Virus record (IMG/VR): IMGVR_UViG_3300044637_000695
Span: 1 to 28,011 of that record
DNA from: a virus
Length of the DNA stretch: 28,011 nucleotides
Reading direction: 5' to 3' (one strand)
Shown here piece after piece: positions 1,503-25,172 of the stretch. The notes under the pieces are model-generated. The model ran no database searches, was not told the DNA's origin, and saw only the letters and a list, made by a program, of their open reading frames with translations. Position numbers and translations under genes: made by a program. Each line of letters begins with the position of its first letter. Within the stretch, counting starts at the first letter, position 1.

Positions 1503-1783
1503 TGCAACCGTAAGCCAATACGATCACCCCTGAGGTAACCAAAGTAAGGGGTCAGAAGTTGGGTTCTATTTCTATCAACATAGTTAGAAAAAGTTGTCCC
1601 CAATAGTTGCAAAAATTGAATTGATATAGGATACTGGGGAGGGTTAAAACTATAGGCTGACAGAAATGTTCCTCCGAAGGCTAAAGACGGCAGTAATCTG
1701 AAGGTCAATTTTAAACACAAAAATCACCAAGGGGATAACTATGTCCAAGAATTTGACTATCTTTGATTTCAAATTGAGGACAA
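1503..1783 (+). ncRNA. Candidate structured ncRNA or long 5' leader
   Basis: Gene-free stretch of about 300 nt downstream of a well-formed promoter. It is richer in G/C tracts than the surrounding DNA and shows several stems: ACCCCT (1526-1531) with AGGGGT (1547-1552); TCCCCA (1597-1602) with TGGGGA (1635-1640); and a CCT-CCGA-AGG hairpin near 1673. No tRNA fold or known riboswitch was recognised and no clear terminator ends it. It could be a phage small RNA or the leader of the gene at 1784, which may also have its own weak -7 box (TATCTTTG, 1758-1765). Confidence 0.4.
1758..1765 (+). promoter_or_regulatory. Possible -7 box (TATCTTTG) before the 1784 gene
   Basis: TATCTTTG fits TAnnTTTG and lies 18 nt before the ATG at 1784, leaving a short A-rich leader. 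No matching TTG upstream was found, so support is partial. Confidence 0.35.
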
Positions 1784-2014
1784 ATGCCTACTTACATCAA
1801 AACTGGAATTTATCAACCACCTTTCACTAAAACTGATGAGGAGGCCGAGCAAGCTCTAGTGTATATTGATGAGAATGTTATCCAAGTCTTAAATGACTCT
1901 GATGACTTGATTATTCAATTTACCTATGAAGAGCTTCGAGGGATAATGGCTGTAATGGCTGCAGAGCAAGAGAAGTCACATTTGTACATTCAAGCTAGAA
2001 CTAAACTTAACTAA
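1784..2014 (+). CDS. Small acidic hypothetical protein (76 aa)
   Basis: Begins MPTYIKTGIYQPPF, then an acidic, probably alpha-beta soluble region (TDEEAEQALVYIDEN, DSDDLIIQFTYEELRG) and a helical end. No Cys, signal peptide or membrane segment. It precedes the first virion-fibre block by 12 nt and may be co-transcribed with it. No family recognised. Confidence 0.6.
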   Translation: MPTYIKTGIYQPPFTKTDEEAEQALVYIDENVIQVLNDSDDLIIQFTYEELRGIMAVMAAEQEKSHLYIQARTKLN

Positions 2015-2026
2015 AACTTTGAAATA

Positions 2027-2581
2027 ATGCCAACTAGATTTATAAACGAGCTTAACTACGATAAAAAGCCGTACGATTCTTTTGATAAAAACCCAGCTAA
2101 GATTGGGTATGTAAATGATATTGCAGATATTGTTACTACTGGGGGATCTTTTTACAACTCTAATACTATTACTACTGCAGCAATCAACACAGCTTACCCA
2201 GTCCCAACCCCAACTACTGTTTATACAGAAGGAATGGGCTATGCTTCAAACACTATTGTAGTAGCTGAGCCTGGGACATATAGCTTTGACTACACAATCC
2301 AAGTGTTTAAAAACAACACAACTACTGAAGGATCTTTAACTGCATGGCTAGCTGTAAACGGAGTTAACCAAGATTACACTGCCAATACAATATCAATGGC
2401 AATTACAAATCAAATTGGGGTCCTTACTCTCCACTCTCACGTAGTAACAACTGCTCCTAACACTAGAGTTGGATTATTGTATGCTGCTAATTCAACAGAT
2501 ATGCAACTTAGAGCATCTGCTGCTTCAGCTCCATACCCAGCAATTGCATCAGTTACTTTAGAAGTAGATAGAATTCGATAA
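2027..2581 (+). CDS. Putative virion decoration/adhesin protein, C1q/TNF-like (184 aa)
   Basis: The first 50 residues look like a virion attachment segment (MPTRFINELNYDKKPYDSF). The rest is beta-rich with few charges and much Thr/Ala/Asn; 'EPGTYSFDYTIQV' followed by 'GSLTAWLAVNG' resembles the C1q/TNF-like jelly-roll domain common in phage and bacterial surface proteins. The fold call is from pattern only. It opens the first adhesin block, with the next start 5 nt after its stop. Likely role: a trimeric surface or fibre-tip protein. No SD is seen before the start, as elsewhere. Confidence 0.6.
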   Translation: MPTRFINELNYDKKPYDSFDKNPAKIGYVNDIADIVTTGGSFYNSNTITTAAINTAYPVPTPTTVYTEGMGYASNTIVVAEPGTYSFDYTIQVFKNNTTTEGSLTAWLAVNGVNQDYTANTISMAITNQIGVLTLHSHVVTTAPNTRVGLLYAANSTDMQLRASAASAPYPAIASVTLEVDRIR

Positions 2582-2586
2582 GATAG

Positions 2587-4134
2587 ATGGATACTTACAA
2601 CCCTAATGAACTTACTGCTGCCCCTAAGAAGGTCGATATTAGCTTGAGACAACTTGCTGATTTCGACCAGACTGGGGGTGACCGTAATAGGGTTGACAAT
2701 GTAAGGGACAATCAAGTCCTAGTATCCTTATCTAAGTTCAATCGTCCAAAGACGTTTAGCTTTCGATACATCTCAGATATTCTCTTAGAGGGTAACGGGG
2801 TAACAATTGCTACAGACAAGGATGGAATAACAACTATCTCAAACTCAGGGGTTACTAAAATTATAGCTGGGACTAACATCACTATATCCCCGACAAGTGG
2901 AGTTGGGGATGTCACAATCACCTCAACAGGTGGTGGTGGCGGTGGAGTTCCATACACAGGAGCTATTGCAAATGTTGATCTTGGGGTATATAACCTTAAA
3001 GCTGATGCCTTAGAACTTTCTCAAACCCCAGTAGATACTGCTGGAGTAGGGAAAATGGTTTGGAATAATAGTGATGGAACTATTGAGTTTCAGTTAAAAG
3101 GAGGTAATGTCACTTTACAAGTTGGGCAAGAGCAAGTTGTTCGTATAGTAAACAAAGTTGGATCAAATTTACTTGAAGCAAACTATCAATGTGTTCGTGT
3201 TAGAACACAGGCAGAAGGTGGAGCAGCAGGTCAACGTTTAGCAATTAAGTTAGCACAGGCAAATACAAAGGCAAATCACACAGGAATTTTAGGGTTAGTT
3301 ACTGAAACGATTAACAACAACCAAGAAGGGTTTATAACTACGTTTGGATTAGTTCGAAACATTGACACAACTGGAAATCTTCAAGGAGAAACATGGTTAG
3401 ACGGAGATACATTATGGTTATCTGAAACAACTGCTGGAGGTCTTACTAATGTAGAACCGACAACGCATCCAGTTCAAATTGGTTATGTTGTCTATGCACA
3501 TCAAAACAACGGAAAGATTTTCGTGTCAGTAAGTCAAGGTGTTGACGAATTAGGAGAGTTGCATAATGTGGATATCTCTTCCCCAACAAACTGGCAATTA
3601 TTAAGATACAATAGTTCTACAAGCCGCTGGATTAACGATACTTTAGTAGCTTCTGTGCTTCCAAGTGGAATTGATGCCTCTAAAATTGGAGCAGGAACTG
3701 TAGATAATACAGAGTTTGGGTATCTTAATGGGGTAACATCTTCAATACAGACACAATTAAATGCAAAACAAGGTACATTAACACTTACCACTACAGGAAC
3801 AAGTGGAGCAGCTACTTTGGTTGGCTCAACTTTGAACATTCCTCAATATGGAGGTGGTGGAGGAGGTGGAACTATATACAAACTAACGGCTCAGACATTA
3901 ACTGCTGCAAGTTGGACTTTATCAGGAAGTTATTATACCTACACATTCTCTAATGTAAACATAACTACTAATACAAGAGTGGATTTTACACCTGACAACT
4001 CAGCATACAATGAAGTTACAACTTGTGGAATGCTTCCTGAAGTTGATGTTTCATCTGGAAGCTGTACATTTTATTCGTTATTTCCACCTCAGAGTAATAT
4101 CTTAGGAGAGGTAACAATATTCCCAACAGTTTAA
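2587..4134 (+). CDS. Putative tail fibre protein with Gly linkers (515 aa)
   Basis: Features in order: an N-terminal virion-binding region; a short beta repeat AGTNITISPTSGVGDVTITS ending in a poly-Gly linker near residue 120; a globular beta domain to about residue 350; the segment DNTEFGYLNGVTSSIQTQLN near 385 (a pattern widespread in phage tail fibres); a second poly-Gly linker near residue 425; and a compact C-terminal domain with two Cys (CGM, GSC). Two Gly hinges flanking a fibre shaft and a tip domain fit a host-binding fibre. It sits between the C1q-like protein and the LRR protein, spaced 5 and 2 nt from them. Confidence 0.75.
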   Translation: MDTYNPNELTAAPKKVDISLRQLADFDQTGGDRNRVDNVRDNQVLVSLSKFNRPKTFSFRYISDILLEGNGVTIATDKDGITTISNSGVTKIIAGTNITISPTSGVGDVTITSTGGGGGGVPYTGAIANVDLGVYNLKADALELSQTPVDTAGVGKMVWNNSDGTIEFQLKGGNVTLQVGQEQVVRIVNKVGSNLLEANYQCVRVRTQAEGGAAGQRLAIKLAQANTKANHTGILGLVTETINNNQEGFITTFGLVRNIDTTGNLQGETWLDGDTLWLSETTAGGLTNVEPTTHPVQIGYVVYAHQNNGKIFVSVSQGVDELGELHNVDISSPTNWQLLRYNSSTSRWINDTLVASVLPSGIDASKIGAGTVDNTEFGYLNGVTSSIQTQLNAKQGTLTLTTTGTSGAATLVGSTLNIPQYGGGGGGGTIYKLTAQTLTAASWTLSGSYYTYTFSNVNITTNTRVDFTPDNSAYNEVTTCGMLPEVDVSSGSCTFYSLFPPQSNILGEVTIFPTV

Positions 4135-4136
4135 TT

Positions 4137-6347
4137 ATGGCATTTAACCTACCAGTACAGAATTTTTTTAACAGAACAGTAGAACCACCTGCTTGGGTAA
4201 GACCTGCAGATTGGCCTGTTATTACAGATGCTCCTAATGAAGTTCAGTTTTTAATGTCCGATATTAATGATGCATCTTGTACAGTTAGAACACAATTCAC
4301 AAGAACATCAGGATCTCAAAATATTGTCATTGATTGGGGAGATGGTAACACTGATACCATTTCAGCTACTGGACAAACAGATACAACTCATCAGTATGTT
4401 GTAGGCTCAGGTACACCATGCTCAAGGGGATATACTACATTTAAGATAAGAGTCTACTTTACAGGAACTGGTGTATCTGTATTAAGTGCTTGTAGACTAT
4501 TTGGTCTTTTAATTTCAGGAAATAGTAATACTCCTTTTTACAATGTAGGATTACTTGAGGCATACTATGGAGATGGAACGCAGACTTCAAGTATTGCACA
4601 GTATTATAATTCTAATACTACAAGCAGTACCTCACAAGGTAATTTTAATTATCTAGAATATGTAAAGCTACCTGCAACGGTTTCTTGGACTAGTATGGCT
4701 TCTACTTTTTCTAACTGCTTTTCTTTAGCAGTTGTTGTTATGCCTACCTCTGCAAGTTCTTTACAAGCAGTTGCCAATACATTTACTAACTGCTACAATT
4801 TAAGATCTGTAATATTTCCATCAAATTCAACAGCAATAACTTCTCTCGCTAGTGCTTTTGCTAGTTGTTATGAATTAACTTCAGTTACACTTCCTGCAAC
4901 TTTAAATTCGTGTACTTCTATTCAAAGTACATTTAGTAACTGCAGAAGCTTGAAGAATTTAGTAGTCCCATCTATTAACGCTTGTACCAATCTTAGTAAT
5001 ATGTTTACAGGATGTACATCTTTAGAATGGGTTAAATTCACAAGTTTACCAACATTTGGAGGTACAACTGCTGTTGATGCTTCAAGCTTATTTTCAAGTT
5101 GCCGTAACCTACAGAATGTATACTTTCCAGCAACGTGTTCTTCCAATGCAAATTATAATTTCTCAACTGCATTTAATAGCTGTTCAAATCTAAAGTCTAT
5201 AGTATTCCCATCAGGATTTAATCCAAACACATTAAATGTTTCACTTAATGGATGTTCAAGTTTAGTTAGATGTGTTTTCCAGTCAGGAGCATCTAACTTG
5301 ACTGATATGGGAAGTTGCTTTAGTGGATGTGCTAATTTAACATCAGTTACTTTACCTAGCTCAGTTAGTGCATCTGGAATTGTTTTATCATCCACATTTA
5401 TTGGCTGTTCATCTCTGAAAAGTATTACTATTCCTAGTGGCTATTTATTTACTAACTTATCTTCAACATTCAATAGTTGTCTTTCCCTACAAACAATTAA
5501 CTGGACACCAGGAACTCAAAATTCATTAACTACTTTAAACGGAACTTTTACTGGATGTTTCCTCTTAACTTCAGTTACATTACCGTCAAGTATGACCGCT
5601 GTAACTGATTTAAATAGTACATTTAGTAACTGTTCATCTTTAACTTCAGCTGTATTTCCAGCAACAATGAATGCTGTTACAACTATGAGTGCAACTTTTG
5701 GGAACTGCACTTCATTAACATCTGTAACACTTCCAACAAGTATGTCTAGTTGTACTCAATTCGGTTCAACATTTAGTGTATGTAGTAACATTAGAAGTAT
5801 TACAATGCCTAATACGGTGTCTACAGCTATAACATCTTTTTCTAATACATTTAATGCTTGCAATGCATTGTCAACTGTAACTCTTCCAGGTGCTGCCCAA
5901 TTATCAAGTGTAAATAGTATCTCTTCTATGTTCTTTGGGTGTAGTAATTTAACAACTATAACTAATTTTGATAAGATAGGCTCTTTAACAGCAACACCTT
6001 TAGTAATTGCTACAGGTAATTTAAATGCTAGATTGACATCGATTTCTTTTGTAATGCCACTAAGTGGATTGCAACTTTCTGGATCAGGTGCTACTGCAAG
6101 AGCAGATGTTCGATCTGTAAGACTACTTAACACATCAGCAGGACAATGGACAATAACGTCTCCTCAAATCAACGTGAGTTTTACAAATATGTCTACTGCT
6201 CAATTAGTTCAACTATTTAACGATATGGCAGCACAAGGAAATGTAGTGTCAAAAACAATAAATATTACAAGTGCAACAGGTGCAGCAGGATTAACAGCGG
6301 CTGATAGATTAATAGTAACATCTAAAGGCTGGACAATAACAGGATAA
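4137..6347 (+). CDS. BspA-like leucine-rich-repeat adhesin/tail fibre (736 aa)
   Basis: Residues about 1-35 resemble a virion attachment segment. Residues about 40-120 carry a PKD-like stretch (VIDWGDGNTDTISATG). Residues about 188-617 are roughly 17 tandem units of 23-28 residues built on 'F-x2-C-x2-L-x-S-V-x-L-P', matching BspA/LRR_5-type repeats in which the conserved Cys or Asn stacks inside the solenoid. The end (about 620-736) is a separate domain with no known name. BspA-like proteins are bacterial surface adhesins; inside a phage fibre cluster it most likely binds a host surface receptor. Ser/Thr/Asn content and A/T-ending codons are extreme compared with the capsid genes. There is no signal peptide, as expected for a virion protein. 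Confidence 0.75.
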   Translation: MAFNLPVQNFFNRTVEPPAWVRPADWPVITDAPNEVQFLMSDINDASCTVRTQFTRTSGSQNIVIDWGDGNTDTISATGQTDTTHQYVVGSGTPCSRGYTTFKIRVYFTGTGVSVLSACRLFGLLISGNSNTPFYNVGLLEAYYGDGTQTSSIAQYYNSNTTSSTSQGNFNYLEYVKLPATVSWTSMASTFSNCFSLAVVVMPTSASSLQAVANTFTNCYNLRSVIFPSNSTAITSLASAFASCYELTSVTLPATLNSCTSIQSTFSNCRSLKNLVVPSINACTNLSNMFTGCTSLEWVKFTSLPTFGGTTAVDASSLFSSCRNLQNVYFPATCSSNANYNFSTAFNSCSNLKSIVFPSGFNPNTLNVSLNGCSSLVRCVFQSGASNLTDMGSCFSGCANLTSVTLPSSVSASGIVLSSTFIGCSSLKSITIPSGYLFTNLSSTFNSCLSLQTINWTPGTQNSLTTLNGTFTGCFLLTSVTLPSSMTAVTDLNSTFSNCSSLTSAVFPATMNAVTTMSATFGNCTSLTSVTLPTSMSSCTQFGSTFSVCSNIRSITMPNTVSTAITSFSNTFNACNALSTVTLPGAAQLSSVNSISSMFFGCSNLTTITNFDKIGSLTATPLVIATGNLNARLTSISFVMPLSGLQLSGSGATARADVRSVRLLNTSAGQWTITSPQINVSFTNMSTAQLVQLFNDMAAQGNVVSKTINITSATGAAGLTAADRLIVTSKGWTITG
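4698..5987 (+). repeat. About 17 tandem LRR-coding units (69-84 bp each)
   Basis: In-frame tandem units coding F-x2-C-x2-L-x-S-V-x-L-P. Neighbouring units share short DNA blocks such as variants of ACATTTAGTAACTG and TTAACTTCAGTTAC, so the array probably grew by duplication and then diverged. Units 5, 6 and 16 are longer than the typical 25 residues. Confidence 0.75.
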
Positions 6348-6348
6348 T

Positions 6349-6522
6349 ATGGAAGATACATCAGGATTTTACAAGCAAAATGAAGAGGGTGAATGGATTT
6401 TTGCCCCTAACTTTGTATTCTCATCAGAATATGAATTAAGAAGAGAGTTGAAGGATACCTATACCTACCCCATAGATGGATGGAATTGGTACGATGAATG
6501 CCCAGAAGAAACAAATATTTAA
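6349..6522 (+). CDS. Small tail-fibre-associated protein (57 aa)
   Basis: The ATG at 6349 begins 1 nt after the LRR gene's stop and the frame ends at TAA 6520-6522. The product is MEDTSGFYKQNEEGEWIF, then an APNFVFSSEYELRREL segment, then TYPIDGWNWYDECPEE. The order 'GFYK...G.W.FAPN.V....Y.L......Y..P.DGW.W.D' is one I recall for a short protein that often follows tail-fibre genes in many phages. Role unknown: a fibre chaperone or a small virion part are possibilities. It is rich in Trp/Tyr and acidic. Confidence 0.7.
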   Translation: MEDTSGFYKQNEEGEWIFAPNFVFSSEYELRRELKDTYTYPIDGWNWYDECPEETNI

Positions 6523-6526
6523 AAAT

Positions 6527-7072
6527 ATGAAAAAATACTCTTACGTAGAATTAGAAAACAGGTTCAAAGAACTTGGGTATCAGTGGCCACTATTCCATAT
6601 CATTGGAGTTCGTTCAAAAGCTAACGAAAAAAACAAGTTTGATGATCGTTTCTACTTGATTAAAGGCCCAATAATGTATGAGTTTACAGGAACAACTAAT
6701 CCTGGGACTCACTGGCTTAAAAATTTGCTAAATCCTAAGGGAACTGCAGTCCTTAAGCCAGGACAATACGTTGATGCTTACCAATTAGGATTGCATCAAG
6801 GTAAGTATGAAGCATTAGTACAACGTAAACCTGTAACTGTGTACCGTGATGGAGACAAAGATGATTTAGCTGAGGAGCAAGGCAAAGAAGATACTGGCTT
6901 ATTTGGAATTAACATCCATCGTGCTAACCCATCGGCTATTTCTAACTTTATAGATAAATGGTCTGCAGGCTGTCAAGTGTTAAATAATCCCGAACAGTTC
7001 AAAATACTGATTAGTTCTAGTAAAACATCGGGTAGAAAGGAATTTACTTATACATTATTAAGAGAATTTTAA
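6527..7072 (+). CDS. Putative endolysin with L,D-transpeptidase-like motif (181 aa)
   Basis: I chose the ATG at 6527, 4 nt after the previous stop; an in-frame ATG at 6476 would overlap the preceding gene by 47 nt. The C-terminal half has GINIHRAN with His131 and, 15 residues on, SAGCQ with Ser146 and Cys149. A His followed by S-x-G-C is the layout of YkuD-type L,D-transpeptidase active sites and of related phage peptidoglycan-acting proteins. Upstream are 'LGLHQGKYEALVQRKPVTVY' and 'YRDGDKDD', which I recall from a widespread phage family of unclear activity. It sits directly before two holin candidates, so the likely role is cell-wall degradation at lysis. There is no signal peptide, so it would need a holin. 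Confidence 0.65.
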   Translation: MKKYSYVELENRFKELGYQWPLFHIIGVRSKANEKNKFDDRFYLIKGPIMYEFTGTTNPGTHWLKNLLNPKGTAVLKPGQYVDAYQLGLHQGKYEALVQRKPVTVYRDGDKDDLAEEQGKEDTGLFGINIHRANPSAISNFIDKWSAGCQVLNNPEQFKILISSSKTSGRKEFTYTLLREF

Positions 7073-7073
7073 A

Positions 7074-7241
7074 ATGGAAAACGCTATTGTAAACAAACTC
7101 CTTGAATTTGGGCTACTTGGGATAATCTGTGTAGTAATGGGAATCGTTATTTACAAATTTTGGCAGCAAGATCGAAAGGAGAAACAGAGGTTAATCGAGA
7201 GACTTGAGAAACTTAACGACGAATTAAGAAAAGACAAATGA
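7074..7241 (+). CDS. Small one-TM protein, BhlA/UviB-like holin candidate (55 aa)
   Basis: Starts 1 nt after the endolysin candidate's stop. One hydrophobic segment (LLGIICVVMGIVIYKFW, about residues 14-30) is followed by a highly charged, coiled-coil-like tail (QQDRKEKQRLIERLEKLNDE). A short N-terminus, a single membrane helix and a charged C-terminal coil are the architecture of BhlA/UviB-type holins. It overlaps the next gene by 4 nt (ATGA). Position in the lysis cassette supports a holin or holin regulator; sequence alone does not prove it. Confidence 0.6.
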   Translation: MENAIVNKLLEFGLLGIICVVMGIVIYKFWQQDRKEKQRLIERLEKLNDELRKDK

Positions 7242-7486
7242 AAAAATGGATAAAGTCAATGTTTTCTGCTGAAGGAGATGTAAGTTACAAAAGAGTTGGG
7301 TCATTCCTAGCTCTTTTGACGTGCTTAGTCATTGCACACGTATCTACATTTACAATTTATGTATGTCCTGAGTTTATTTATGATGGCTTGCTAATCCTTT
7401 CAGGAGCTGGAATGGGATTCACAGCTGTAGAAAACGTATCAAAAGTATTCGGAAAACCAAAATCAAATGAGCAGACAGAACAGTAA
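7238..7486 (+). CDS. Two-TM putative holin (82 aa)
   Basis: A cationic, amphipathic start (MKKWIKSMFSAEGDVSYKRV) leads into a first membrane helix (about 21-44, SFLALLTCLVIAHVSTFTIYV) and a second one (about 50-63, GLLILSGAGMGFTAV), ending in a polar tail. 'DG/NGLLILSGAGxGFT' is a pattern I associate with small membrane proteins next to lysis genes in Bacteroidetes phages. Two helices with both ends probably in the cytoplasm fit a class II-like holin. It overlaps the gene before by 4 nt and the gene after by 20 nt. Confidence 0.6.
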   Translation: MKKWIKSMFSAEGDVSYKRVGSFLALLTCLVIAHVSTFTIYVCPEFIYDGLLILSGAGMGFTAVENVSKVFGKPKSNEQTEQ

Positions 7487-7832
7487 AGCAATTTCCTGGC
7501 AAGGCATAGCATTTATAGCTTGTGCAATCTTAACAGTCATAGTTCTTGGCCTAGTTTCTCAATTACAGGCCAGTAAAGAAGCCAAATCTAAAGCAGATGC
7601 TAAATTAAAAGTGATATCAGATTTGTATGAGCTCAAGATTGACTCAATACAAACAATGCACATTGTAGATAGCCTAGCTTATCACGATAGTATCAACAAA
7701 TACAAGATACTAGCAAATGCACACCTAATCATTAACATAAAAAAAGACAGAGATGAAGTCATTGGTCGTATTTCTAGTGCTGATAACAATGAACGTGATC
7801 AGCTATGGGCAACTTACTCCCCAAAGAATTAA
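7467..7832 (+). CDS. i-spanin-like inner-membrane coiled-coil protein (121 aa)
   Basis: One N-terminal membrane helix (about residues 12-32, WQGIAFIACAILTVIVLGLV) is followed by a long charged helical region and the ending ISSADNNERDQLWATYSPKN. This topology (anchor in, coiled coil out into the periplasm) and the place after the holins match an Rz-type i-spanin. Its last 80 nt contain, in the +1 frame, the start and signal peptide of the next gene, an arrangement like Rz/Rz1. Family not confirmed by similarity; the role is inferred from topology and context. Confidence 0.6.
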   Translation: MSRQNSKAISWQGIAFIACAILTVIVLGLVSQLQASKEAKSKADAKLKVISDLYELKIDSIQTMHIVDSLAYHDSINKYKILANAHLIINIKKDRDEVIGRISSADNNERDQLWATYSPKN

Positions 7833-9740: not shown

Positions 9741-10208
9741 ATGGTCATACCATCAGTGTATGCCCTGACAATCCCTGAATTTGAGAAGCTATCCATCAAA
9801 GAGCTAAGCTTTATCTACTTCTTTGTGGACCACAGATCTAGTTATGCAGCATATGACGATGAAGAACGTCAAGAAGTTTTGATGAAAGACTTAGGGGTGA
9901 AGATAACCCCTAAATTAACAGCCGGAGTAGACAAGTACAAGGAACTATCTGATACTCATGCTACTAAACTTCTTAAATCTGCACGTTTGTCTGTGAACAA
10001 ACTAGAAAACTACTTTAAAACAATTGACCTTACAGCTCTGGATGAAAATGGAAAGTTAGTATACCAAGCAAAAGACCTTCTATCAAATCTATCAAAGGTT
10101 GGAGAGGTAATCGAAGGCCTAGATAGACTAGAAGAGTTGATTCAAAAGCAACAAGCCAAGGATAGTCCAAACAGAGCAGGAGTAAAAACTAATAAGTACA
10201 GTGAGTAA
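9741..10208 (+). CDS. Putative terminase small subunit (155 aa)
   Basis: The most likely start is the ATG at 9741, just after the previous stop; an ATG at 9711 would add 10 residues and overlap. The protein is helical: ELSFIYFFVDHRSSYAAYDD, then HATKLLKSARLSVNKLENYF, then NLSKVGEVIEGLDRLEELIQ. 'SxYAAYDDEER' and 'LLKxARxxVxKLxxYF' are patterns I recall in proteins directly before TerL in other phages. Its stop overlaps the TerL start by 8 nt, as TerS/TerL pairs often do. No DNA-binding motif is obvious, so the call rests on context. Confidence 0.55.
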   Translation: MVIPSVYALTIPEFEKLSIKELSFIYFFVDHRSSYAAYDDEERQEVLMKDLGVKITPKLTAGVDKYKELSDTHATKLLKSARLSVNKLENYFKTIDLTALDENGKLVYQAKDLLSNLSKVGEVIEGLDRLEELIQKQQAKDSPNRAGVKTNKYSE

Positions 10209-12174
10209 GCTTAAAGACACACATTTATTTGCCCCAGCTGCAGCTCATTACATTGAGTACGGCTTTTATACTGATGCTCTTCCAGGTACAAAACAGTACT
10301 ATGAGTATTGGGATGAAGAGCAGAATAGATGCATGCATGGATATGAAGTTAATGGGGTAAAAATTTCTGGATTTCACTATTTTTACTTAAATTATTGTCC
10401 AATAGATAGGATTATAGATGAAGAACAACCTGATGGTGAAATTATCTCACGACGTGATAGAAGCTTCCCAGCATTTTATGACGGTGACTTCGAATACTTT
10501 AACTCGGTTGATAGAGCACGTAGAGAAAACAAACATCTCGTGGTTCTCAAGGCTCGTCGAAAAGGATTCTCCTACAAAGCTGCAGCTATGCTTTGCCGTA
10601 ACTACTTCCATATTAGGAATTCTAAGAATTTTGTATTTGCTTCTGACAAGCAATACTTAACTGGAGATGGAATGCTGTCAAAAGCTTGGGACATTGTCTC
10701 ATTCATAGATGACAACACAGCTTGGACTCAGCCTCGACTTATCGACAGAGAAATGCACAAGCAATCTGGGTACAAAAAGAATGTAAACGGAGCCGACGTA
10801 ACTTTAGGGTTTAAATCACAGATTATCGGTGTCAGCTTGAAAGATGATCCAGATAAAATCCGTGGTAAAGCAGGTGAATTAATCTTTTTCGAAGAAGCAG
10901 GATCTTTTGCAGGCTTATTAAAAGCTTGGGAGGTAGCCATGCCTACGATGAGACAAGGGTCAAAGACACTTGGGACAATGATTGCATTTGGAACAGGTGG
11001 AGAAGAAGGCCCAGGCTTTGAAGGTATGGAGGAATTATTTTATCACCCTGAAGCTTATGACTGCCTTGGATTTGAAAACGATTGGGATGCTGGGGCCATG
11101 GGAACTACTTGTGGTTACTTTGTTCCTATCTACAAAAACTTAGATGGATTTATTGACGAGAATGGTAACAGCTTAGTCGAAGAAGCAATTGCTTACGAAG
11201 AAGCTCAAAGAGAAAAGAAGAAGAAAGGTAATGACCCAAAAGCTTTTGACCAGTACATTGCAGAGATGCCGTTCACCCCACAAGAAGCTACATTACAAGT
11301 TACTGCAAATACCTTCGACGTATCATCTTTAAAAGAACAGTACAACAGAGTAATTGCTAACGATCTTCAGAAAATTGGGGTAGCAGGTGAGATGTATTAC
11401 GATAGTAAAGGTAAAGTTAGCTTCAGACCTGACTTCAACCTTAAACCTATTGTTAAATTCCCACACAGAAAGGATGACAATTTAACCGGGGCCATAGTTA
11501 TCTACGAACCTCCATTTAAAACAGAAGTAGAAGATATTACCCCAAAGAACTTATACATAATTTGCCATGACCCGTATGCACAAGGAAAGTCAGCATCAGC
11601 TACATCTCTCGGTGCTGCTTATGTTATCAAAGTCCCGAACAACATTTCTAAGCCTGATGATATCATTGTGGCTTCGTATGTCGGAAGGCCTCAGACCCAA
11701 GATGACTACAATAGAAATCTATTTATGCTGGCTGAATACTACAATGCAAAGATTGGATTTGAGAATGACCGAGGAGAAGTTATTGCCTATGCAAAACGAT
11801 TTAGAAAAATGCATATGCTACAGGAAGAGTTCGAAATGCTGGATAAGAGAGATCTTAGAAGTAAGACAGTAAAACGACAGTACGGTATGCACATGACTGA
11901 GCAAAGAAAAGCTCAAGGTGAATTGTATATCAGAGACTGGTTAGTTAGTGGTAGAGGGGTAAACGAAGATGGAGACGTAACTCTAAATATGCACAAGATT
12001 TATGACCCAGCACTTTTACTAGAGTTAATCAAATTTAACAGACAGGGCAACTTTGACCGTGCCATGGCATTCATGATTGGGATGTATCACACACGAGAGT
12101 TATATAATAAGGAACTCAAGTTTGATGACCATGACAACTCAAAAAATGACTGGTTTGACAAAAACTACGGTTAA
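10201..12174 (+). CDS. terL: Terminase large subunit (657 aa)
   Basis: DNA-packaging motor of the head. The N-terminal ATPase shows a Walker A-like segment VLKARRKGFSYKAA (residues about 115-128) and a Walker B-like LIFFEEAG (about 227-234, catalytic Glu 231/232). The C-terminal RNase H-like nuclease shows IICHDPYAQGK with Asp457, and IGFENDRGEV with Glu521. Length fits TerL of large or crAss-like phages (about 600-700). The start is GTG at 10201, overlapping the TerS candidate by 8 nt; the next codons SKLKDTHLFAPAAAHYIEYG read as real protein. It ends 81 nt before the portal gene. Walker A is the deviant form usual in terminases. Confidence 0.85.
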   Translation: MSKLKDTHLFAPAAAHYIEYGFYTDALPGTKQYYEYWDEEQNRCMHGYEVNGVKISGFHYFYLNYCPIDRIIDEEQPDGEIISRRDRSFPAFYDGDFEYFNSVDRARRENKHLVVLKARRKGFSYKAAAMLCRNYFHIRNSKNFVFASDKQYLTGDGMLSKAWDIVSFIDDNTAWTQPRLIDREMHKQSGYKKNVNGADVTLGFKSQIIGVSLKDDPDKIRGKAGELIFFEEAGSFAGLLKAWEVAMPTMRQGSKTLGTMIAFGTGGEEGPGFEGMEELFYHPEAYDCLGFENDWDAGAMGTTCGYFVPIYKNLDGFIDENGNSLVEEAIAYEEAQREKKKKGNDPKAFDQYIAEMPFTPQEATLQVTANTFDVSSLKEQYNRVIANDLQKIGVAGEMYYDSKGKVSFRPDFNLKPIVKFPHRKDDNLTGAIVIYEPPFKTEVEDITPKNLYIICHDPYAQGKSASATSLGAAYVIKVPNNISKPDDIIVASYVGRPQTQDDYNRNLFMLAEYYNAKIGFENDRGEVIAYAKRFRKMHMLQEEFEMLDKRDLRSKTVKRQYGMHMTEQRKAQGELYIRDWLVSGRGVNEDGDVTLNMHKIYDPALLLELIKFNRQGNFDRAMAFMIGMYHTRELYNKELKFDDHDNSKNDWFDKNYG

Positions 12175-12255: not shown

Positions 12256-14466
12256 ATGTACGGACAAGCCCATATCCCAAAACAACGAATCCCATTGTCT
12301 CAAAAAAATGAGGCTTGGCAGAAATCATGTGTAGATGCATTTATCAATCTTTCTAAGTTTGGTATTAGTGAACGTCGTACATATCTTAAATCTCTTTACG
12401 ATTATTACAATGGTGTAATTGATGAAGAAGATTACAACTACGTACTTAAACCTTACGGAAAAACTAGAAAGAATTTCCCGTCAAAGCTACGTAACTATCC
12501 TATCATCAAGCCAGTTATCGATTTATTGTTAGGGGAAAAATCTAAACGTCCATTAGAGTTCACTGTTACGGTGCAAAACTCTGATTCAATTAGCATCAAA
12601 GAAGAGACACTTAAAAACTTAATGCTTACAAACATTAAAGCAAAGTTCTTAAGTGAGTTAGCTAAGCAAGGCCAATTGCCTGAAGGAATGGAAGCTGAAG
12701 AGCCGCCACTCCCAAAACAAATACAAGAAGAATTCAATAGAAGTTATGTAGACTCTAGAGCAATCAGAGGGCAGGCTGCTCTAAACTACATTATGTACTT
12801 CACAGAGTTTTACGACAAATTACAAAAGCAATTCTTCCACTTCTTAGTAACTGGGGAATGCTACTCACACAAAGGGGTACGTCGTAACGAACCTTTCTAC
12901 GAAGTTATTAACCCATTAGATGTCGACTTTGATAAAGATCCAGACATTGACTTCGTAGAAGATGGTGACTGGGCTATTCTTAGAAAGTATGCACATGCTT
13001 CTACAATCATAGACAATCTAGGAGACTTTTTAACTGACGATCAAATTCTTCAATTAGAAACTCCAACACATACAGCAGCACAGGCTTACTTACTTTACCG
13101 TGCAGAAGCAGCTGGAGCCGATGACAACATTTATCGTAACCGACTTGTAGAAGTTGTAACAGTTTATTGGAAATCAAGAAAGAGAGTTGGGTTTGTTGTT
13201 TACAATGATCCTAACACTGGTAATCAAGAAACATTCGATATAGAAGAAGATTACAAAATGCCAAAAGAGTTAAAAGATCTTGGGGCTAAAATCGAATGGG
13301 AGTGGGTTAACGAAGTTTGGGAGGGTACACGTATCGACGGTCTTTACTACATTAAGATGAGACCTTACGTTAACCAAAGAAACAGTTTAGACAACCCATC
13401 AATTTGCAAACTTCCAATTAACGGAAGAAAATACTCAGACATCAACTCACAGAACGTGTCGTTGATCAGCCTTGGTATTCCATATCAGCTTAATTATAAC
13501 ATCTATAAGTACCGTCTTGAATTAGCAATTGCTAGAAGTAAAGATATCGTAGCTCAGTTTGATATTAACATGATCCCTAAAAACTGGGACATGGATAAGT
13601 TTATGCACTATGTAGAAGGTACAGGTATTGCTTGGGTTGACTATAACAAAGAAGGAATTCAATTGTCTCCTCAACACCAGTCAGTATTAGATATGTCAAT
13701 TAAGACCATATCACAATACTTAACTCTCCTTGAATCTATCATGTTAGAATGGGAAAAACTTTCCGGGGTAACAAGACAGAGACAAGGGCAAATGGGAACT
13801 TATGAAGGAAAAGCCACATCCCAGCAATCCATTGTTCAATCTTCTCACATTACTGAAGACATCTTCAGGAAGTTTTCTAACTTTGAGCAGAGAGAACTAC
13901 AAGGTCTACTTGACTATTCGAAAGAAGCTTGGCTTAACGGTAAAAAAGCAACGTACGTAATGCCTGATGGTTCATTTGATGAGCTAGACATTGATCCAAT
14001 CACACACATGGAAAGTGAGTATGGAATCTTTGTATCTGATGCAGGTAAAGACATTGATAAGAAACAAAAGATTGAAGGACTTGCTCAAGCAGCAGTTCAA
14101 AATGGTCTTCCACTTTCTGCAGCAATTGCTATGTACGAATCAGATAGCTTGAGCCAAATTAAAGATAAAATTGTTCAAGCTGAGAAAGCTCAAGAGCAAC
14201 TTAAGCAAGCACAAGACCAAGCTATGCAACAGCAAGAGCAGGCTAAACTTCAAGTTCAGCAACAAGCTATTCAACAAGCAGCTTTAGATAAAGAAAAAGA
14301 TCGTCAACTTCAAATTGAAGTAGCATTAATTGCAGCTGAGTCTAAAGACAAAGATTCTAGTGCAAGTCTTGAAAAGATGATGCAAGATTTCCAATTAAAA
14401 CAACAAGAGCTAGCTCTAAAAGAAAGAGACTTAGAAATTAAAGCTAACTCACAAAATCAACAGTAA
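12256..14466 (+). CDS. Portal protein (736 aa)
   Basis: Forms the dodecameric ring at the head vertex through which DNA enters and to which the tail attaches. The N-terminal part has RTYLKSLYDYYNGVIDEEDY, then FPSKLRNYPIIKPVIDLLLG followed by EKSKRP; 'YPIIKPVIDLLLGEK' is a pattern I associate with portals of crAss-like and related phages. The centre is alpha-beta. The C-terminus (about residues 645-736) is a Gln/Ala/Lys-rich helix, as in the portal barrel or a coiled coil. Length (736) fits that group. It is the first gene after TerL and overlaps the next start by 1 nt. The family name rests on recall and order. Confidence 0.75.
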   Translation: MYGQAHIPKQRIPLSQKNEAWQKSCVDAFINLSKFGISERRTYLKSLYDYYNGVIDEEDYNYVLKPYGKTRKNFPSKLRNYPIIKPVIDLLLGEKSKRPLEFTVTVQNSDSISIKEETLKNLMLTNIKAKFLSELAKQGQLPEGMEAEEPPLPKQIQEEFNRSYVDSRAIRGQAALNYIMYFTEFYDKLQKQFFHFLVTGECYSHKGVRRNEPFYEVINPLDVDFDKDPDIDFVEDGDWAILRKYAHASTIIDNLGDFLTDDQILQLETPTHTAAQAYLLYRAEAAGADDNIYRNRLVEVVTVYWKSRKRVGFVVYNDPNTGNQETFDIEEDYKMPKELKDLGAKIEWEWVNEVWEGTRIDGLYYIKMRPYVNQRNSLDNPSICKLPINGRKYSDINSQNVSLISLGIPYQLNYNIYKYRLELAIARSKDIVAQFDINMIPKNWDMDKFMHYVEGTGIAWVDYNKEGIQLSPQHQSVLDMSIKTISQYLTLLESIMLEWEKLSGVTRQRQGQMGTYEGKATSQQSIVQSSHITEDIFRKFSNFEQRELQGLLDYSKEAWLNGKKATYVMPDGSFDELDIDPITHMESEYGIFVSDAGKDIDKKQKIEGLAQAAVQNGLPLSAAIAMYESDSLSQIKDKIVQAEKAQEQLKQAQDQAMQQQEQAKLQVQQQAIQQAALDKEKDRQLQIEVALIAAESKDKDSSASLEKMMQDFQLKQQELALKERDLEIKANSQNQQ

Positions 14467-14891
14467 TGAAATACATGGACAAAGTAGCCTCAGCTAAAGG
14501 TAAAGTAACCGTACCTGGGTTAGTAGTAGAATTGCTAGATGCAACACTTAAATTTCACATCTTACACTTAACAATCACAGGTCCAAATTCTTATGCTGCT
14601 CACAAAGCACTTAACGAATTGTATGATGCATTACCTGACCATGCAGACACAATTGCAGAAGGCTATCAAGGAGCAACTGGAGAAATTCCAAAGTATCCTG
14701 CAGATATGCCCTCGTACGTGTGTGCACCTGCAATGTCAAATGTTAAAGAAGCAATTAGCTACATCGAAGAACTTCATTCTAAAATCTGTAAGTTACAAGA
14801 CACTATAACTTATTCAGAAATCATAAACGACTTAGACACCATCAAGTCTACTTTAAACTCAGCTAAGTATAAGCTTAAATTCTTGTCATAA
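14466..14891 (+). CDS. Dps/ferritin-like protein (141 aa)
   Basis: Residues 34-65 (HLTITGPNSYAAHKAL continuing to DTIAE) match the Dps ferroxidase signature with exact spacing: His34, His46 (+12), then Asp61 (+15) and Glu65 (+19), corresponding to E. coli Dps H51, H63, D78 and E82. The position of Dps D67 is Asn50 here. 'L-H-x3-G-P-N-x-Y-x2-H-K-A-L' is also a pattern of phage ferritin-like proteins. The rest is helical, consistent with a four-helix bundle slightly shorter than Dps (about 167). It overlaps the portal stop by 1 nt. It could bind iron, protect DNA, or be carried in the virion. Fold well supported; iron oxidation uncertain with D67 changed. Confidence 0.7.
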   Translation: MKYMDKVASAKGKVTVPGLVVELLDATLKFHILHLTITGPNSYAAHKALNELYDALPDHADTIAEGYQGATGEIPKYPADMPSYVCAPAMSNVKEAISYIEELHSKICKLQDTITYSEIINDLDTIKSTLNSAKYKLKFLS

Positions 14892-18197: not shown

Positions 18198-19619
18198 ATG
18201 TCAGTAATGCAAGTTTTAAAGACGTACTATAACGATAGTCAGATGACCGACACTAACTCGTTGGTTAATGCACTTATGGAACGTCCAGAGGAGTTATCTC
18301 CTATTATCACTCACTTAGCAGGTCGTGAAGAGAAAAAGTTCCCATTGTCTTTCTTAACAGAAGGTGTTGGAAACACTAAATCTATCGATCGTTTCGAGTA
18401 TGAGTACCGTGTTAAAACACACGAAATTAATGTTCGTCCTGTTGTTGTAGGATTGGGTGCAGCTGCTGGTGCAGGTGGAGCTCCTTTCTACTTAACTTTC
18501 CCAGACAAATGGTTCGTATTCCCTTACACTCTTGTTTCTCAATCAGGTGTATTGGCACGTATCATGGCTGAGCCAGTTGCAGACGGTGCAGGTTGGAAGT
18601 ATACTTTGAAAATTGTATCTCCTGACACTGCTAACGTTCCTGCTGCTGACGTAGCTGCTGGTGCTCTTTGGGGTCAATTGTATGCTAACGTAGGTGTAGA
18701 TTTCTCTCGTGGAAATGCTTCTAACTGGACTGCTCCAGGTTTAGTTCGTTCTAAGATTGGAACTATCCGTAAGTCTTACCACTTCTCTGGAAATGCTAAA
18801 GATTACGTTGCACAATTCGAACTTCCTTTGAAAGAAGGTAGCAAGACTAAGTTGTGGATGGATTACGAAGAGTACCGTCACATGTTGAAGTTCAAAGAAG
18901 AGTGTGAAATGTACTACTGGTACGGTCAAAAAACTCACGATGCATCTGGTACTTCTACCATGTTGGATGAGAATGGTCAACCAGTTATTTCAGGTCCTGG
19001 TCTTCTTGAGCAAATCATCAACAAAGACACTTACTCTACGTTGACTCAAACTAAACTTGAAGAAACAATTGGAGATTTGTTCTATGGTATGACTGATGCT
19101 ACAGACAAGCAAGTTACCCTTTACACTGGTATTGGTGGAGCTCGTGAGTTTGACAAAGCTCTTAAGTCTTACTATGGTGCTAATTCTTTCCTACAAACAA
19201 CTCAACCATACTTCATCACTGGATCTGGTCGTAACTTGGGAATCACCGGTTACTTCACTAGCTACCAACACGTTGATGGGTACTCAGTGAATGTAGTTAA
19301 GTCTCACTTGTTTGATCATGGTCCTGTTGCTCAAGCTTCTCAAAAGCACCCAGTATCAGGTCTTCCACTTGAATCTTACCGTATGGTATTCGTTGACCAA
19401 TCAACTTATGACGGAGAAAACAACTTGCAAATGATCAATAAAAAAGGTCGTGAGTTACTTCGTTGGTGTGTTGCTGGTTCAGTAGTTCCAAAAGGATTTA
19501 CTGCTAACGATAGCCGTGCTAGTGATATAGACGGTGCATCTGTTCATATGCTTAAGACTGCTGGTATCTTACTTCGTCGTTTCGATACAAGCTTAGATCT
19601 TAAGTGTATTGCATCGTAA
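18198..19619 (+). CDS. Major capsid protein (473 aa)
   Basis: Position after scaffold, length near 470-500, and HK97-like features suggest the major capsid protein. The segment REEKKFPLSFLTEGVGNTKS near residue 50 is a pattern I recall in crAss-like capsid proteins. Codon use is strongly biased (GCT, CGT, ACT, TAC, AAC) compared with flanking genes, as expected for the most abundant virion protein. It is followed by a strong terminator 20 nt after its stop, closing a scaffold-capsid transcription unit. No cleavage site for a prohead protease is obvious. Confidence 0.8.
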   Translation: MSVMQVLKTYYNDSQMTDTNSLVNALMERPEELSPIITHLAGREEKKFPLSFLTEGVGNTKSIDRFEYEYRVKTHEINVRPVVVGLGAAAGAGGAPFYLTFPDKWFVFPYTLVSQSGVLARIMAEPVADGAGWKYTLKIVSPDTANVPAADVAAGALWGQLYANVGVDFSRGNASNWTAPGLVRSKIGTIRKSYHFSGNAKDYVAQFELPLKEGSKTKLWMDYEEYRHMLKFKEECEMYYWYGQKTHDASGTSTMLDENGQPVISGPGLLEQIINKDTYSTLTQTKLEETIGDLFYGMTDATDKQVTLYTGIGGAREFDKALKSYYGANSFLQTTQPYFITGSGRNLGITGYFTSYQHVDGYSVNVVKSHLFDHGPVAQASQKHPVSGLPLESYRMVFVDQSTYDGENNLQMINKKGRELLRWCVAGSVVPKGFTANDSRASDIDGASVHMLKTAGILLRRFDTSLDLKCIAS

Positions 19620-22825: not shown

Positions 22826-23320
22826 ATGGCTATTACTTCCATTACCAGTGTTTCAATCTCTGCTGACTGCAAAACATTAACTGCAGTATTTGAAGGACAA
22901 CCTACTCCTGCAAATTTTACTAATGAGATTACCACTACTACTTTTAATTCAACTACTGTTGGTACGTTAACTAACACAAGTGGTACAACATGGCAATGGG
23001 TAGTTACATCAATTCAAGCCAATGAAACCTTTACTGGAGTTATTACAATTGATTCTTTAAACGGATCATCCGTTAGCATTGAAAAATATTCAGTAGGAAC
23101 CTGTGAGCTAGACTGCTGCATAGCAAATCTAGTAAATGATGCAATTAATTGCACATGTGAATGTGATCGTTGTGATGAGGATCTGCATAGAGCAGAAAAA
23201 GTTCACTTACTTGCAGAGTCTGCTAAGTATAGTGCAATTAACAACAATGTAACTGATGCAATTAATAAATACACCAAAGCCAAAGAATTCTGTACAGAAG
23301 TTTGTGCTTGTGGATGTTAA
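22826..23320 (+). CDS. Cys-rich virion-associated protein (164 aa)
   Basis: The N-terminal half (1-92) is beta-rich with Thr/Ser and resembles a small Ig-like virion domain. The C-terminal half has a helical core (HRAEKVHLLAESAKYSAINN) flanked by Cys: C93, C97, C98, C109, C111, C113 and C116 before it, and C156, C160, C162 and C164 after it; counting C15 there are 12. Two Cys clusters that bracket a helical hairpin suggest a compact metal- or disulphide-bound knot. The combination of CxCxCxxC with a helical 'KxxLLxxSAKY' segment recalls small proteins of Bacteroidetes phages. Role unknown; beside virion genes. Confidence 0.6.
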   Translation: MAITSITSVSISADCKTLTAVFEGQPTPANFTNEITTTTFNSTTVGTLTNTSGTTWQWVVTSIQANETFTGVITIDSLNGSSVSIEKYSVGTCELDCCIANLVNDAINCTCECDRCDEDLHRAEKVHLLAESAKYSAINNNVTDAINKYTKAKEFCTEVCACGC

Positions 23321-23765: not shown

Positions 23766-25172
23766 ATGTCATTACCTATAAGTTCTCTTACATTAATTGC
23801 TAAAACAAGCATAGGAGCTACTCACTATCTTCCTTTAGCAGACGGAACAGCAGCTAACTATAAGCTGTTAATTCAAGATTTGTTCCCTGCAATGAATACA
23901 TTAGGGGCATCTAGTGAATCATTATTTGTAAGTGTGACAAATAAGAACACTTTGAATTTCAAAGGTATCAAGTCTTTAGATAACTTGTTAACAGTAACAA
24001 CTGCAAGTAATAATATTACATTGCAAGTAAACCCTGCTAATATTGATTTATCTCTTTGTGATAATTCTACATCAGGATTTATTACAGGTCCTGTAAGCTT
24101 AACCAGTGGAATCTCAGGAACATTGCCTGTTGCTAATGGTGGTACAGGCCTTGCTACTTTAACAGCTAACAGCTTATATGTAGGTAACGGAACATCAGCT
24201 TTAACAGCATTAGGTGCTGCAACTAACGGTCAAATCCCAATTGGTCGTACAGGTTTGTCTCCAGTACTTGCAACATTAACTGCAGGAACTAACGTAACAG
24301 TTACAAACGGTTCTGGTTCTATTACAATTGCTGCAAGCTTAACAACTCTTACTCAAAACTTAAATGGAGCTGGGTATAATATCTACGGTCTTGGATGGTT
24401 AAGTGGTGATGGTCAAAATGAAGGTATTGCAGTTAACTCTGCAGGTAAAGTATTTGTAGGATCTTCAACTCCAACTGCATTCTACAATTATGACTTAAAT
24501 GTAAATAATGGAATTGGGTTAAATGGGTCTATATCTCAAAATATTACAATGAGTAGTAGTGCAACACCAGGGTGGCTAACTGTTACGGGGTCACAAGCTA
24601 TAGTAACTAATGTAGCTGGAGGTAATATAAGTATTGATGGTGGTACTGCTACTGGTACAGGAGCAGGTGGAGGACTTTTCTTTCAAGGTGGGGCTAATAT
24701 ATCTGGATCTGGATCTGGAGGTCCAGCATGGTTAAAAGGTGGCAATGCTGATGCAGGACCTGGAGGTACAGCATTAATAGCTGGAGGAGCTTCTACATCA
24801 GGAGCTGGAGGAACTGTATCTATCACTGCAGGGGCTGGAGTTACCGTAGGTGGAACTGTAGCTATTACTGCAACTGGAGCAGTACAGGGAGGTCCAGTTA
24901 ATATAACAGCTGGTTCTGCAACAACAGGTACAGCAGGAAGTGTTAATATAACCCCTGGTAAAAGCACCTCTGGAGCAGACGGTAAAACAGTAATTAATGT
25001 ACCAGTTGGATCTACTACTGCTCCATTAGTTAACTTTACAGGAATCTCAGGAGCAGCCTCGGCTAACTCCTTCTCAACCTCGACTGCATCAGCTTCAGCT
25101 AAAACTGGAGCAATTAAAATTCAAATTAACGGAGTAGACCACTGGATCAGAGTGTATGCTACCGCTGAATAA
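23766..25172 (+). CDS. Tail fibre with Gly-rich shaft (468 aa)
   Basis: N-terminal virion-binding region; a fibre repeat near residues 110-195 (LPVANGGTGLATLTANSLYV, then NGQIPIGRTGLSPVLATLTA and AGTNVTVTNGSGSITIAAS), a pattern common in phage fibres; a shaft of about 130 residues very rich in Gly, Thr and Ala (residues about 280-410, GTGAGGGLFFQGGANISGSG in it) that may form a beta-helix or collagen-like shaft; and a compact C-terminal tip (KTGAIKIQINGVDHWIRVYA). It resembles the 515-residue fibre in overall build, suggesting that both fibres share an evolutionary module. Likely host binding. Confidence 0.75.
   Translation: MSLPISSLTLIAKTSIGATHYLPLADGTAANYKLLIQDLFPAMNTLGASSESLFVSVTNKNTLNFKGIKSLDNLLTVTTASNNITLQVNPANIDLSLCDNSTSGFITGPVSLTSGISGTLPVANGGTGLATLTANSLYVGNGTSALTALGAATNGQIPIGRTGLSPVLATLTAGTNVTVTNGSGSITIAASLTTLTQNLNGAGYNIYGLGWLSGDGQNEGIAVNSAGKVFVGSSTPTAFYNYDLNVNNGIGLNGSISQNITMSSSATPGWLTVTGSQAIVTNVAGGNISIDGGTATGTGAGGGLFFQGGANISGSGSGGPAWLKGGNADAGPGGTALIAGGASTSGAGGTVSITAGAGVTVGGTVAITATGAVQGGPVNITAGSATTGTAGSVNITPGKSTSGADGKTVINVPVGSTTAPLVNFTGISGAASANSFSTSTASASAKTGAIKIQINGVDHWIRVYATAE

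Follow-up and report, generated by a model that had tools for sequence, protein, structure and literature searches.

The window analysed here is the whole of a 28,011-base stretch of viral DNA, the IMG/VR virus record IMGVR_UViG_3300044637_000695. It carries an open reading frame (ORF) for a leucine-rich repeat (LRR) protein directly after a fibre-type gene, and this gene pair is the subject of the present analysis. The features of the pair are listed below, where 'connector' is our own name for the previously unnamed last 88 residues of the fibre protein.

2587..4134, plus strand: upstream fibre-type protein of 515 amino acids (aa), whose stop codon ends 2 nucleotides (nt) before the LRR start codon
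3868..4131, plus strand: connector, a conserved C-terminal domain of about 88 aa of the fibre gene (alignment, translated searches, model)
4137..6347, plus strand: LRR protein of 736 aa, a proposed adhesin forming the distal receptor-binding tip (Pfam, motif lattice, AlphaFold2)
4137..4241, plus strand: residues 1–35, conserved N-terminal segment with a low-confidence coil at the very start (alignment, entropy, AlphaFold2)
4242..4571, plus strand: residues 36–145, all-beta domain with an IDWGDG motif, PKD-like (AlphaFold2)
4668..5969, plus strand: LRR solenoid of 17 units (Pfam, motif, alignment, AlphaFold2, VIA-align)
4698..5945, plus strand: span of the 85 hypervariable codons, at offsets −3, −2, +1, +2 and +4 from the F of each unit (entropy and dN/dS, the ratio of nonsynonymous to synonymous substitution rates)
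5970..6344, plus strand: residues 612–736, conserved C-terminal domain ending in GWTITG, with no Pfam match at E ≤ 0.5

The motif [FL]xxCxx[LI] occurred 18 times in the LRR protein, and 17 of these occurrences lay on a single lattice with a spacing of 24–29 aa (F of FxxCxxL, replaced by L in unit 8, at residues 191, 216, 241, 266, 290, 319, 346, 370, 395, 421, 445, 471, 496, 521, 546, 572 and 599). When the protein was shuffled 2,000 times, at most four matches were obtained (mean 0.48). The Pfam family LRR_5 matched with an E value of 1.5e-53 and 180.5 bits against a gathering cut-off of 27.7, which places the protein in this family; DUF285 matched as well (E 3.1e-9). By profile, the solved LRR_5 proteins 4fs7 (7.1e-35), 4gt6 (1.1e-32) and 6mlx (2.9e-16) were recovered. 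An AlphaFold2 model was calculated from an alignment, A1, of the window protein with 33 relatives (34 sequences). It had a mean predicted local distance difference test score (pLDDT) of 90.7 and a predicted template modelling score of 0.81, and showed a beta domain at the N-terminus, then the solenoid, then an alpha/beta domain at the C-terminus. VIA-align superposed it on 6mlx (Z 18.5, 199 aligned, root-mean-square deviation (rmsd) 3.5) and on 4fs7 (Z 17.5, 355 aligned, rmsd 4.0). By this model the fold is an LRR solenoid, and the roughly 17 BspA-type units that a preliminary description had read from the letters were borne out by lattice, family match and structure prediction alike.

The same description had called the N-terminal part PKD-like. 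The basis for this is the motif IDWGDGNTDT, which we take to be of PKD type, together with the beta-strands in residues 36–144 of the AlphaFold2 model; some of the BFVD matches of the whole LRR model are also named PKD-domain proteins. Residues 1–170 alone matched no Pfam family at E ≤ 0.5, and on the motif and the beta fold the PKD label is kept as plausible.

Relatives were taken from two viral-contig scans (the best 80 matches of each); LRR loci from these scans carry L numbers, and larger carrier records carry G numbers. The main set comprised the window and 80 full-length relatives, 61 of the 81 being left at 90% non-redundancy. Excluded from it were L028, the partial matches L032, L033, L037, L038, L040, L041 and L208, duplicates of a contig already present, and the more distant L042–L081. 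The match of L203 ends one residue before its stop codon. L028, which is closely related (best segment 64% identical), has a reading frame that is interrupted in the LRR part. Among the distant matches, the 22 from L054 to L075 all show 26% identity over residues 10–293 only, on contigs of up to 272 kb.

Protein length in the main set was 719–771 aa (median 732). The preliminary description had suggested that the protein might vary by gain or loss of repeats, and a comparison of repeat number among related phages spoke against this. In the 80 relatives, 1,279 of 1,280 repeat intervals lay within −4 to +6 residues of those of the window; the remaining interval, in L204, was longer by 31 residues, about one unit. 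The comparison uses interval lengths; the anchor count is 16 and not 17 in 79 of the 81 proteins, the L204 insert apparently splitting one anchor column. No off-register near-identical units were found in the 34 sequences of A1, the best being 83% over 54 nt, and the stretch 1700–6600 of the window held four very short tandem DNA arrays, none of them inside the repeat-coding part. Repeat gain or loss was rejected as the mode of variation for the window's LRR family. The more distant LRR proteins are shorter (584 aa for L079, 600–629 aa for L042, L043 and L076), so over longer periods the number of units may shift; their motif counts differ too, these being obtained with a looser pattern than the 17-unit lattice and not representing unit counts.

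Entropy was calculated for 25 sequences under 95% identity, positions being counted from the F of each unit. It exceeded 2 bits in all 17 units at offsets −3 and +1, in 16 at +4, in 15 at −2 and in 13 at +2. Among the other offsets, −5 passed this level in 13 of the 17 units and −1 in eight. The entropy of the core residues F (0), C (+3) and L (+6) was 0.29–0.39 bits. The AlphaFold2 model puts the main beta-strands at about +8 to +10, where entropy was 1.35 bits at +8 and 1.18 bits at +10. Because these strand positions are more conserved, strand position and repeat logic would place the variable stripe away from the main beta-strands. In nine listed pairs at 79–82% nucleotide identity, 66–77 of the 85 variable codons changed their amino acid and 1–6 changed silently.

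Substitution ratios were calculated according to NG86. At the variable positions dN/dS was 1.74 in clade A (eight sequences), compared to 0.51 for the remaining LRR and 0.27 for residues 1–45; in clade B (four sequences) it was 1.16 at the variable positions compared to 0.27. The variable positions for these clade figures had been picked on all sequences. With offsets chosen independently, as the five most variable on the 17 sequences outside clade A (−3, −1, +1, +2 and +4), the value for clade A was 1.53 (unit bootstrap 1.25–1.90) compared to 0.55 (0.44–0.71).

A second LRR family, with about 27% identity to the window protein, was examined in the same way. Its nine sequences (L042–L044, L046–L050 and L076) gave the highest entropies at the same five offsets, −3, −2, +1, +2 and +4, of 19 offsets scanned. 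With the incomplete L042 and L047, a copy of L046, left out (seven sequences), dN/dS at the five offsets was 1.30, a point estimate, compared to 0.27, 0.26 and 0.30 in the other parts. In L046, two genes come before the LRR gene, one of 454 aa and one for a J-type central tail fibre (phrog_31, E 2.3e-108). Most proteins of this family end in KGWTIAT.

The 81 LRR loci were then checked for the connector by translated searches. It lay directly upstream of the LRR gene in all 79 loci, the window included, that had at least 300 bp of upstream DNA; the other two had too little. From the end of the connector match to the LRR start there were 4–34 nt in 78 loci and 314 nt in one (L196). The reverse search gave 48 connector loci, many of them on the same contigs as in the LRR-side count; the LRR gene was right downstream in 47 of 47 with enough DNA, and one lay at a contig end. 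When the window connector was compared with 18 aligned relatives, identity was 67–92% in 16 of them and 38–41% in the other two. The sequence preceding the connector is not conserved. Sixty of the 81 upstream genes were read, and besides pieces cut by contig ends they ranged from stand-alone connectors of about 100 aa up to 1,482 aa, some stalks containing collagen-like GXY runs. Comparison of 23 stalk N-termini by phmmer resulted in six groups, with no link between groups at E ≤ 1e-3.

In L192 and L193, on 234-kb contigs, the upstream gene consists of a part like T4 gp15 (tail sheath stabiliser), then collagen, then the connector. The gp15-like part is borderline with respect to the Pfam cut-off of 25 (24.2 bits in one run, 25.3 in the other), and no other gp15 match occurs in those records. 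A head-closure gene (phrog_218) follows about 1.5 kb past the LRR gene. Of the evidence from sequence, the gp15-like stalk and this nearby gene speak most clearly for the pair being part of the virion. The apparent fusion occupies 2179–3993 in L192, a T4-like contig, and recurs in L193; a fibre of this kind may be anchored at the tail end ring.

The connector modelled alone gave a pLDDT of 95.9. Its model had no Foldseek match at E ≤ 0.001; no solved relative was found by sequence at E ≤ 1, and a search of named phages returned one weak partial match (E 8e-3). The top rows of VIA-align were K64-1 depolymerase (Z 5.2), HK620 (up to 4.8), the H-type Helix pomatia lectin (4.9) and the R1 pyocin fibre (4.4). 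The phage-tailspike rows among these concern C-terminal parts, and VIA's own notes allow that a common arrangement may be all that is shared. Such matches would suit a fibre-end cap, although they are too weak to rest on. Among close pairs, divergence of the connector was followed best by residues 1–35 of the LRR protein (r 0.63, other parts 0.41–0.57). We take this as a weak and mixed hint of docking, and residues 1–35 are proposed as the segment that would dock on the C-terminal domain of the upstream fibre.

Comparison of close relatives showed how the LRR gene changes in relation to its surroundings. For L008/L015 and L007/L023, 300-nt segments at +2.4 to +4.8 kb were 98–100% identical, and those further out were 90–99% identical where aligned, while the repeat-coding segments at +0.6 to +1.8 kb reached only 0.68–0.83. 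L002/L004 and L016/L020 are alike (0.86–1.00) in the last 0.3 kb or so of the fibre gene and in the LRR gene, and their flanks gave no collinear blastn match. L016/L020 is a mosaic, with units 13–16 identical and unit 8 at 0.77. Identical LRR genes were seen across different samples in L021/L022, L030/L031, L017/L018 and L003/L004; these four pairs indicate stable alleles and argue against assembly noise.

The phage to which the window belongs was assessed from its other genes. Those referred to here are listed below.

2027..2581, plus strand: 184-aa protein upstream of the fibre gene, possibly a further appendage part (weak, sub-cutoff BclA_C match, E 0.095)
6476..7072, plus strand: endolysin-type protein, neighbour of the fibre–LRR pair (phrog_33083, E 1.3e-11; best phrog_3000)
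10201..12174, plus strand: terminase large subunit (TerL), crAss-like (PHROG and similarity search)
18198..19619, plus strand: major head protein, crAss-like (PHROG and similarity search)

The TerL matched 164 phage records, and in the 30 rows listed, mostly human-faecal crAss-like phages, identity was 36.7–42.5%. The head protein matched 139 records, with 29–31% in the 12 rows listed. PHROG matches in the window include terminase, portal and head; on these matches and identities, the TerL, portal and major head protein of crAss type expected of Crassvirales are present. Because of the TerL and head protein matches, the window is, on sequence, a fragment of a crAss-like phage. The LRR ORF has the fibre-type gene before it and the endolysin-type and head genes after it, in agreement with the fibre cluster of the preliminary description.

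Sixteen larger records, the window included, were examined as carriers. The crAss-type head protein phrog_11589 was present in seven, the T4-type Gp23 (PF07068) in six others, and neither in three. A tail sheath match was seen in one, the 322-kb record. One Gp23 carrier, G015, holds only the more distant relative L079 (30%). The TerL proteins of G003, G007 and G008 are 28–29% identical to that of the window, compared to 54–60% for their LRR proteins. In a tree of 28 of the 81 main-set proteins, the crAss carrier L186 fell inside a clade, with 100/100 support, that otherwise consists of T4-like carriers, and the carrier-type labels needed two changes in nearly all bootstrap trees. Parsimony favours a transfer of the LRR gene between the crAss-like and the T4-like carriers, which is likely, though not proven. 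On the 322-kb T4-like contig of L203, a sulfotransferase-like gene (6770–7591; Pfam Sulfotransfer_3, E 1.2e-14) lies downstream of the LRR gene.

The preliminary description had also suggested borrowing from Bacteroidetes hosts. One scan of cellular genome contigs for a bacterial donor returned 15 loci, all weak partial matches and none spanning the protein (best segments 25–54% identical; the widest match covers residues 25–621). These belonged to Bacteroidota, but also to Rickettsiales, Bacilli, Clostridia and Streptomyces, and they do not establish the suggested borrowing.

Taken from the sequences directly are a conserved gene pair, a near-fixed repeat number, hypervariable positions, a cassette-like exchange and, in clade A and the second family, an excess of amino-acid-changing substitutions. 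The LRR protein probably forms the receptor-binding tip at the distal end of a virion fibre, resembling gp38 in its working but built on an LRR scaffold. A receptor binder had already been suggested in the preliminary description, and the hypervariable positions, dN/dS, connector pairing and carriers support it; the place in the virion, the docking to the connector, the binding of a receptor and the face that meets it are what we infer. The fibre gene would end in the conserved connector domain, and the LRR protein, made right after it, would dock on this end via its own conserved N-terminal part. The 17-unit solenoid would then present to the host surface a stripe of about 85 residues lying away from the main beta-strands. 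This stripe may be diversified by substitution and by phages swapping alleles, whole or in part, against a nearly constant background of repeat number, core residues and the domains at either end. As a cassette, the pair or only its 3′ portion would move among unrelated fibre stalks and phage kinds (crAss-like and T4-like). A wider proposal, which we put forward tentatively and with some doubt, is that tailed phages without close kinship draw on a common stock of exchangeable variable-LRR tips. Each tip would be a solenoid of fixed length, with five positions in every one of its 17 repeats diversified by positive selection, and would pass between crAss-like and T4-like virions as a connector–LRR cassette, a parallel family standing behind J-type fibres.

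Other readings of the same data were considered. A gene placed right after the connector-bearing gene in 79 of 79 loci could code for a fibre assembly chaperone that is not kept in the virion, T4 gp38 being a released chaperone for gp37 according to the portion of PMC12892980 drawn on here. However, such a protein would not be expected to show, in two families, an excess of substitutions that alter the amino acid at the same positions, and 17 LRR units would be large for one, so that a chaperone appears quite unlikely. It is rather unlikely that the protein is a virion appendage which tethers the phage to environmental glycans or a mucus-like matrix and does not bind the infection receptor. 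Modular adhesins with BACON and PKD domains are reported for crAss-like phages and myoviruses (PMC13370021), but 'leucine-rich' has no occurrence in the main text of that source, and diversification between phages with near-identical flanks fits a changing host receptor better. The variable positions might also be merely relaxed, solvent-exposed sites of any LRR_5 solenoid, as the value of about 1 in clade C (dN/dS 0.95) would allow; the clade A value from independently picked offsets, the point estimate of the second family and the conservation of +8 and +10 on the main strands make this unlikely. That a diversity-generating retroelement writes the variable codons is highly improbable, mainly because no reverse transcriptase (PF00078) was found in 29 distinct records, the window among them, which reach 322 kb and may all be incomplete. 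In favour of such an element, what is probably a surface protein varies only at set codon positions, and in three close pairs the adenine share of changes was higher at variable codons (10/15, 102/144 and 111/162) than elsewhere in the LRR (8/21, 95/168 and 127/211). A fourth close pair showed no adenine excess (21/38 compared to 27/46), third codon positions change too (37/144 and 43/162), the variable codons extend across about 1.25 kb, and identical alleles occur in records of different samples (the four pairs above).

Several results weigh against a receptor-binding fibre tip itself. For all family members the virion place, the binding and the structure are predictions from genes and models, and the structural matches of the connector are weak (VIA Z at most 5.2). 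Over all pairs it is the C-terminus that tracks the connector best (0.77 compared to 0.73). Offset +7, beside the main strand, is moderately variable (above 2 bits in eight of 17 units). The C-terminal (0.86) and PKD-like (0.71) parts in clade A are without strong constraint, and dN/dS is not above 1 everywhere: clade C (three sequences) gave its 0.95 against 0.41 in the rest, and hence no evidence for positive selection. All the dN/dS figures are limited by NG86 being near saturation at these distances and by recombination, which breaks the independence of pairs. Lastly, the fully supported tree branches alone force one change of carrier label and not a transfer between crAss-like and T4-like phages.

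The nearest counterpart in working is T2-type gp38 (T2, S16, PP01), a tip protein on the gp37 trimer whose N-terminus contacts gp37 and whose receptor-binding parts are hypervariable (the same portion of PMC12892980). Like it, the LRR protein is encoded next to a fibre gene and has constant and hypervariable regions. T2-type gp38 is a beta-helix with a polyglycine-II sandwich and loops, whereas the LRR protein is a solenoid with five variable positions per repeat; because the fold differs, it would be a functional analogue and not a gp38 member, and its docking and virion position are here predictions. With the BspA-type LRR_5 cell-surface proteins (solved as 4fs7, 4gt6, 4h09 and TpLRR 6mlx) it shares the repeats and the solenoid fold, but unlike them it is phage-encoded, has a fixed three-part architecture and is linked to a fibre gene.

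In lamprey variable lymphocyte receptors the concave beta-sheet varies and the units are assembled somatically. The phage protein would likewise have a diversified recognition surface on an LRR scaffold, but its variable positions lie away from the main strands, are in register and differ between phage lineages.

Phage LRR_5 proteins are already in databases, for example as 'BspA family leucine-rich repeat surface protein'. One of them, A0A6J5NXB1 of an uncultured Caudovirales phage (BFVD; 42% identity over 795 alignment columns, template modelling score 0.73/0.70), is a member of the present family already in UniProt, named 'Leucine rich repeat 5' by its repeat only and listed without a function. 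In the Klebsiella phage ST16-OXA48phi5.4 (Peduoviridae; L101, MK416015), an LRR_5-like stretch at 5001–6095 in an annotated 'tail protein' covers 50% of the query at 28.5% identity; it differs in being part of a longer protein beside baseplate genes, and the connector search had no match there. Ig-like modular adhesins (PMC13370021) and variable tail spikes (PMC10354031) are reported for crAss-like phages and isolates, respectively, and the main texts of both sources contain neither 'leucine-rich' nor 'leucine'. In titles and abstracts no phage LRR receptor-binding tip, connector pair or variable positions were found described, which is weak evidence of absence since most subscription papers lay outside the search. 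Fibre-tip adhesins as a kind and LRR_5 in phages were thus known already; new here would be a fibre-tip adhesin on a different scaffold.

Receptor-binding proteins decide the host range of phages, and little is known about them in uncultured crAss-like phages. Where the scaffold stays constant and the variable positions recur regularly, such a tip would be recognisable directly from its sequence and its alleles typable across metagenomes, and the array gives a way to test which part of the host surface the alleles bind. The presence of the tip in crAss-like and T4-like phages would show that tips can move across phage lineages independently of the remaining virion. If true, the shared pool of tips would parallel, among viruses, the immune receptors built on LRRs, with recognition by a different face of the repeat.

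A few further observations concern the rest of the window. ARAGORN found no tRNA in it, and on the minus strand only mechanical ORFs were seen. A DUF5856 match (Pfam, E 1.3e-15) lies at 14466–14891, directly after the portal gene. The 164-aa protein at 22826–23320 has a cysteine-rich C-terminal half (CC, CTCECDRCDED, CTEVCACGC). A second fibre-type gene, with a weak tail fiber match (phrog_31660, E 1.2e-4), occupies 23766–25172, distant from the LRR pair.

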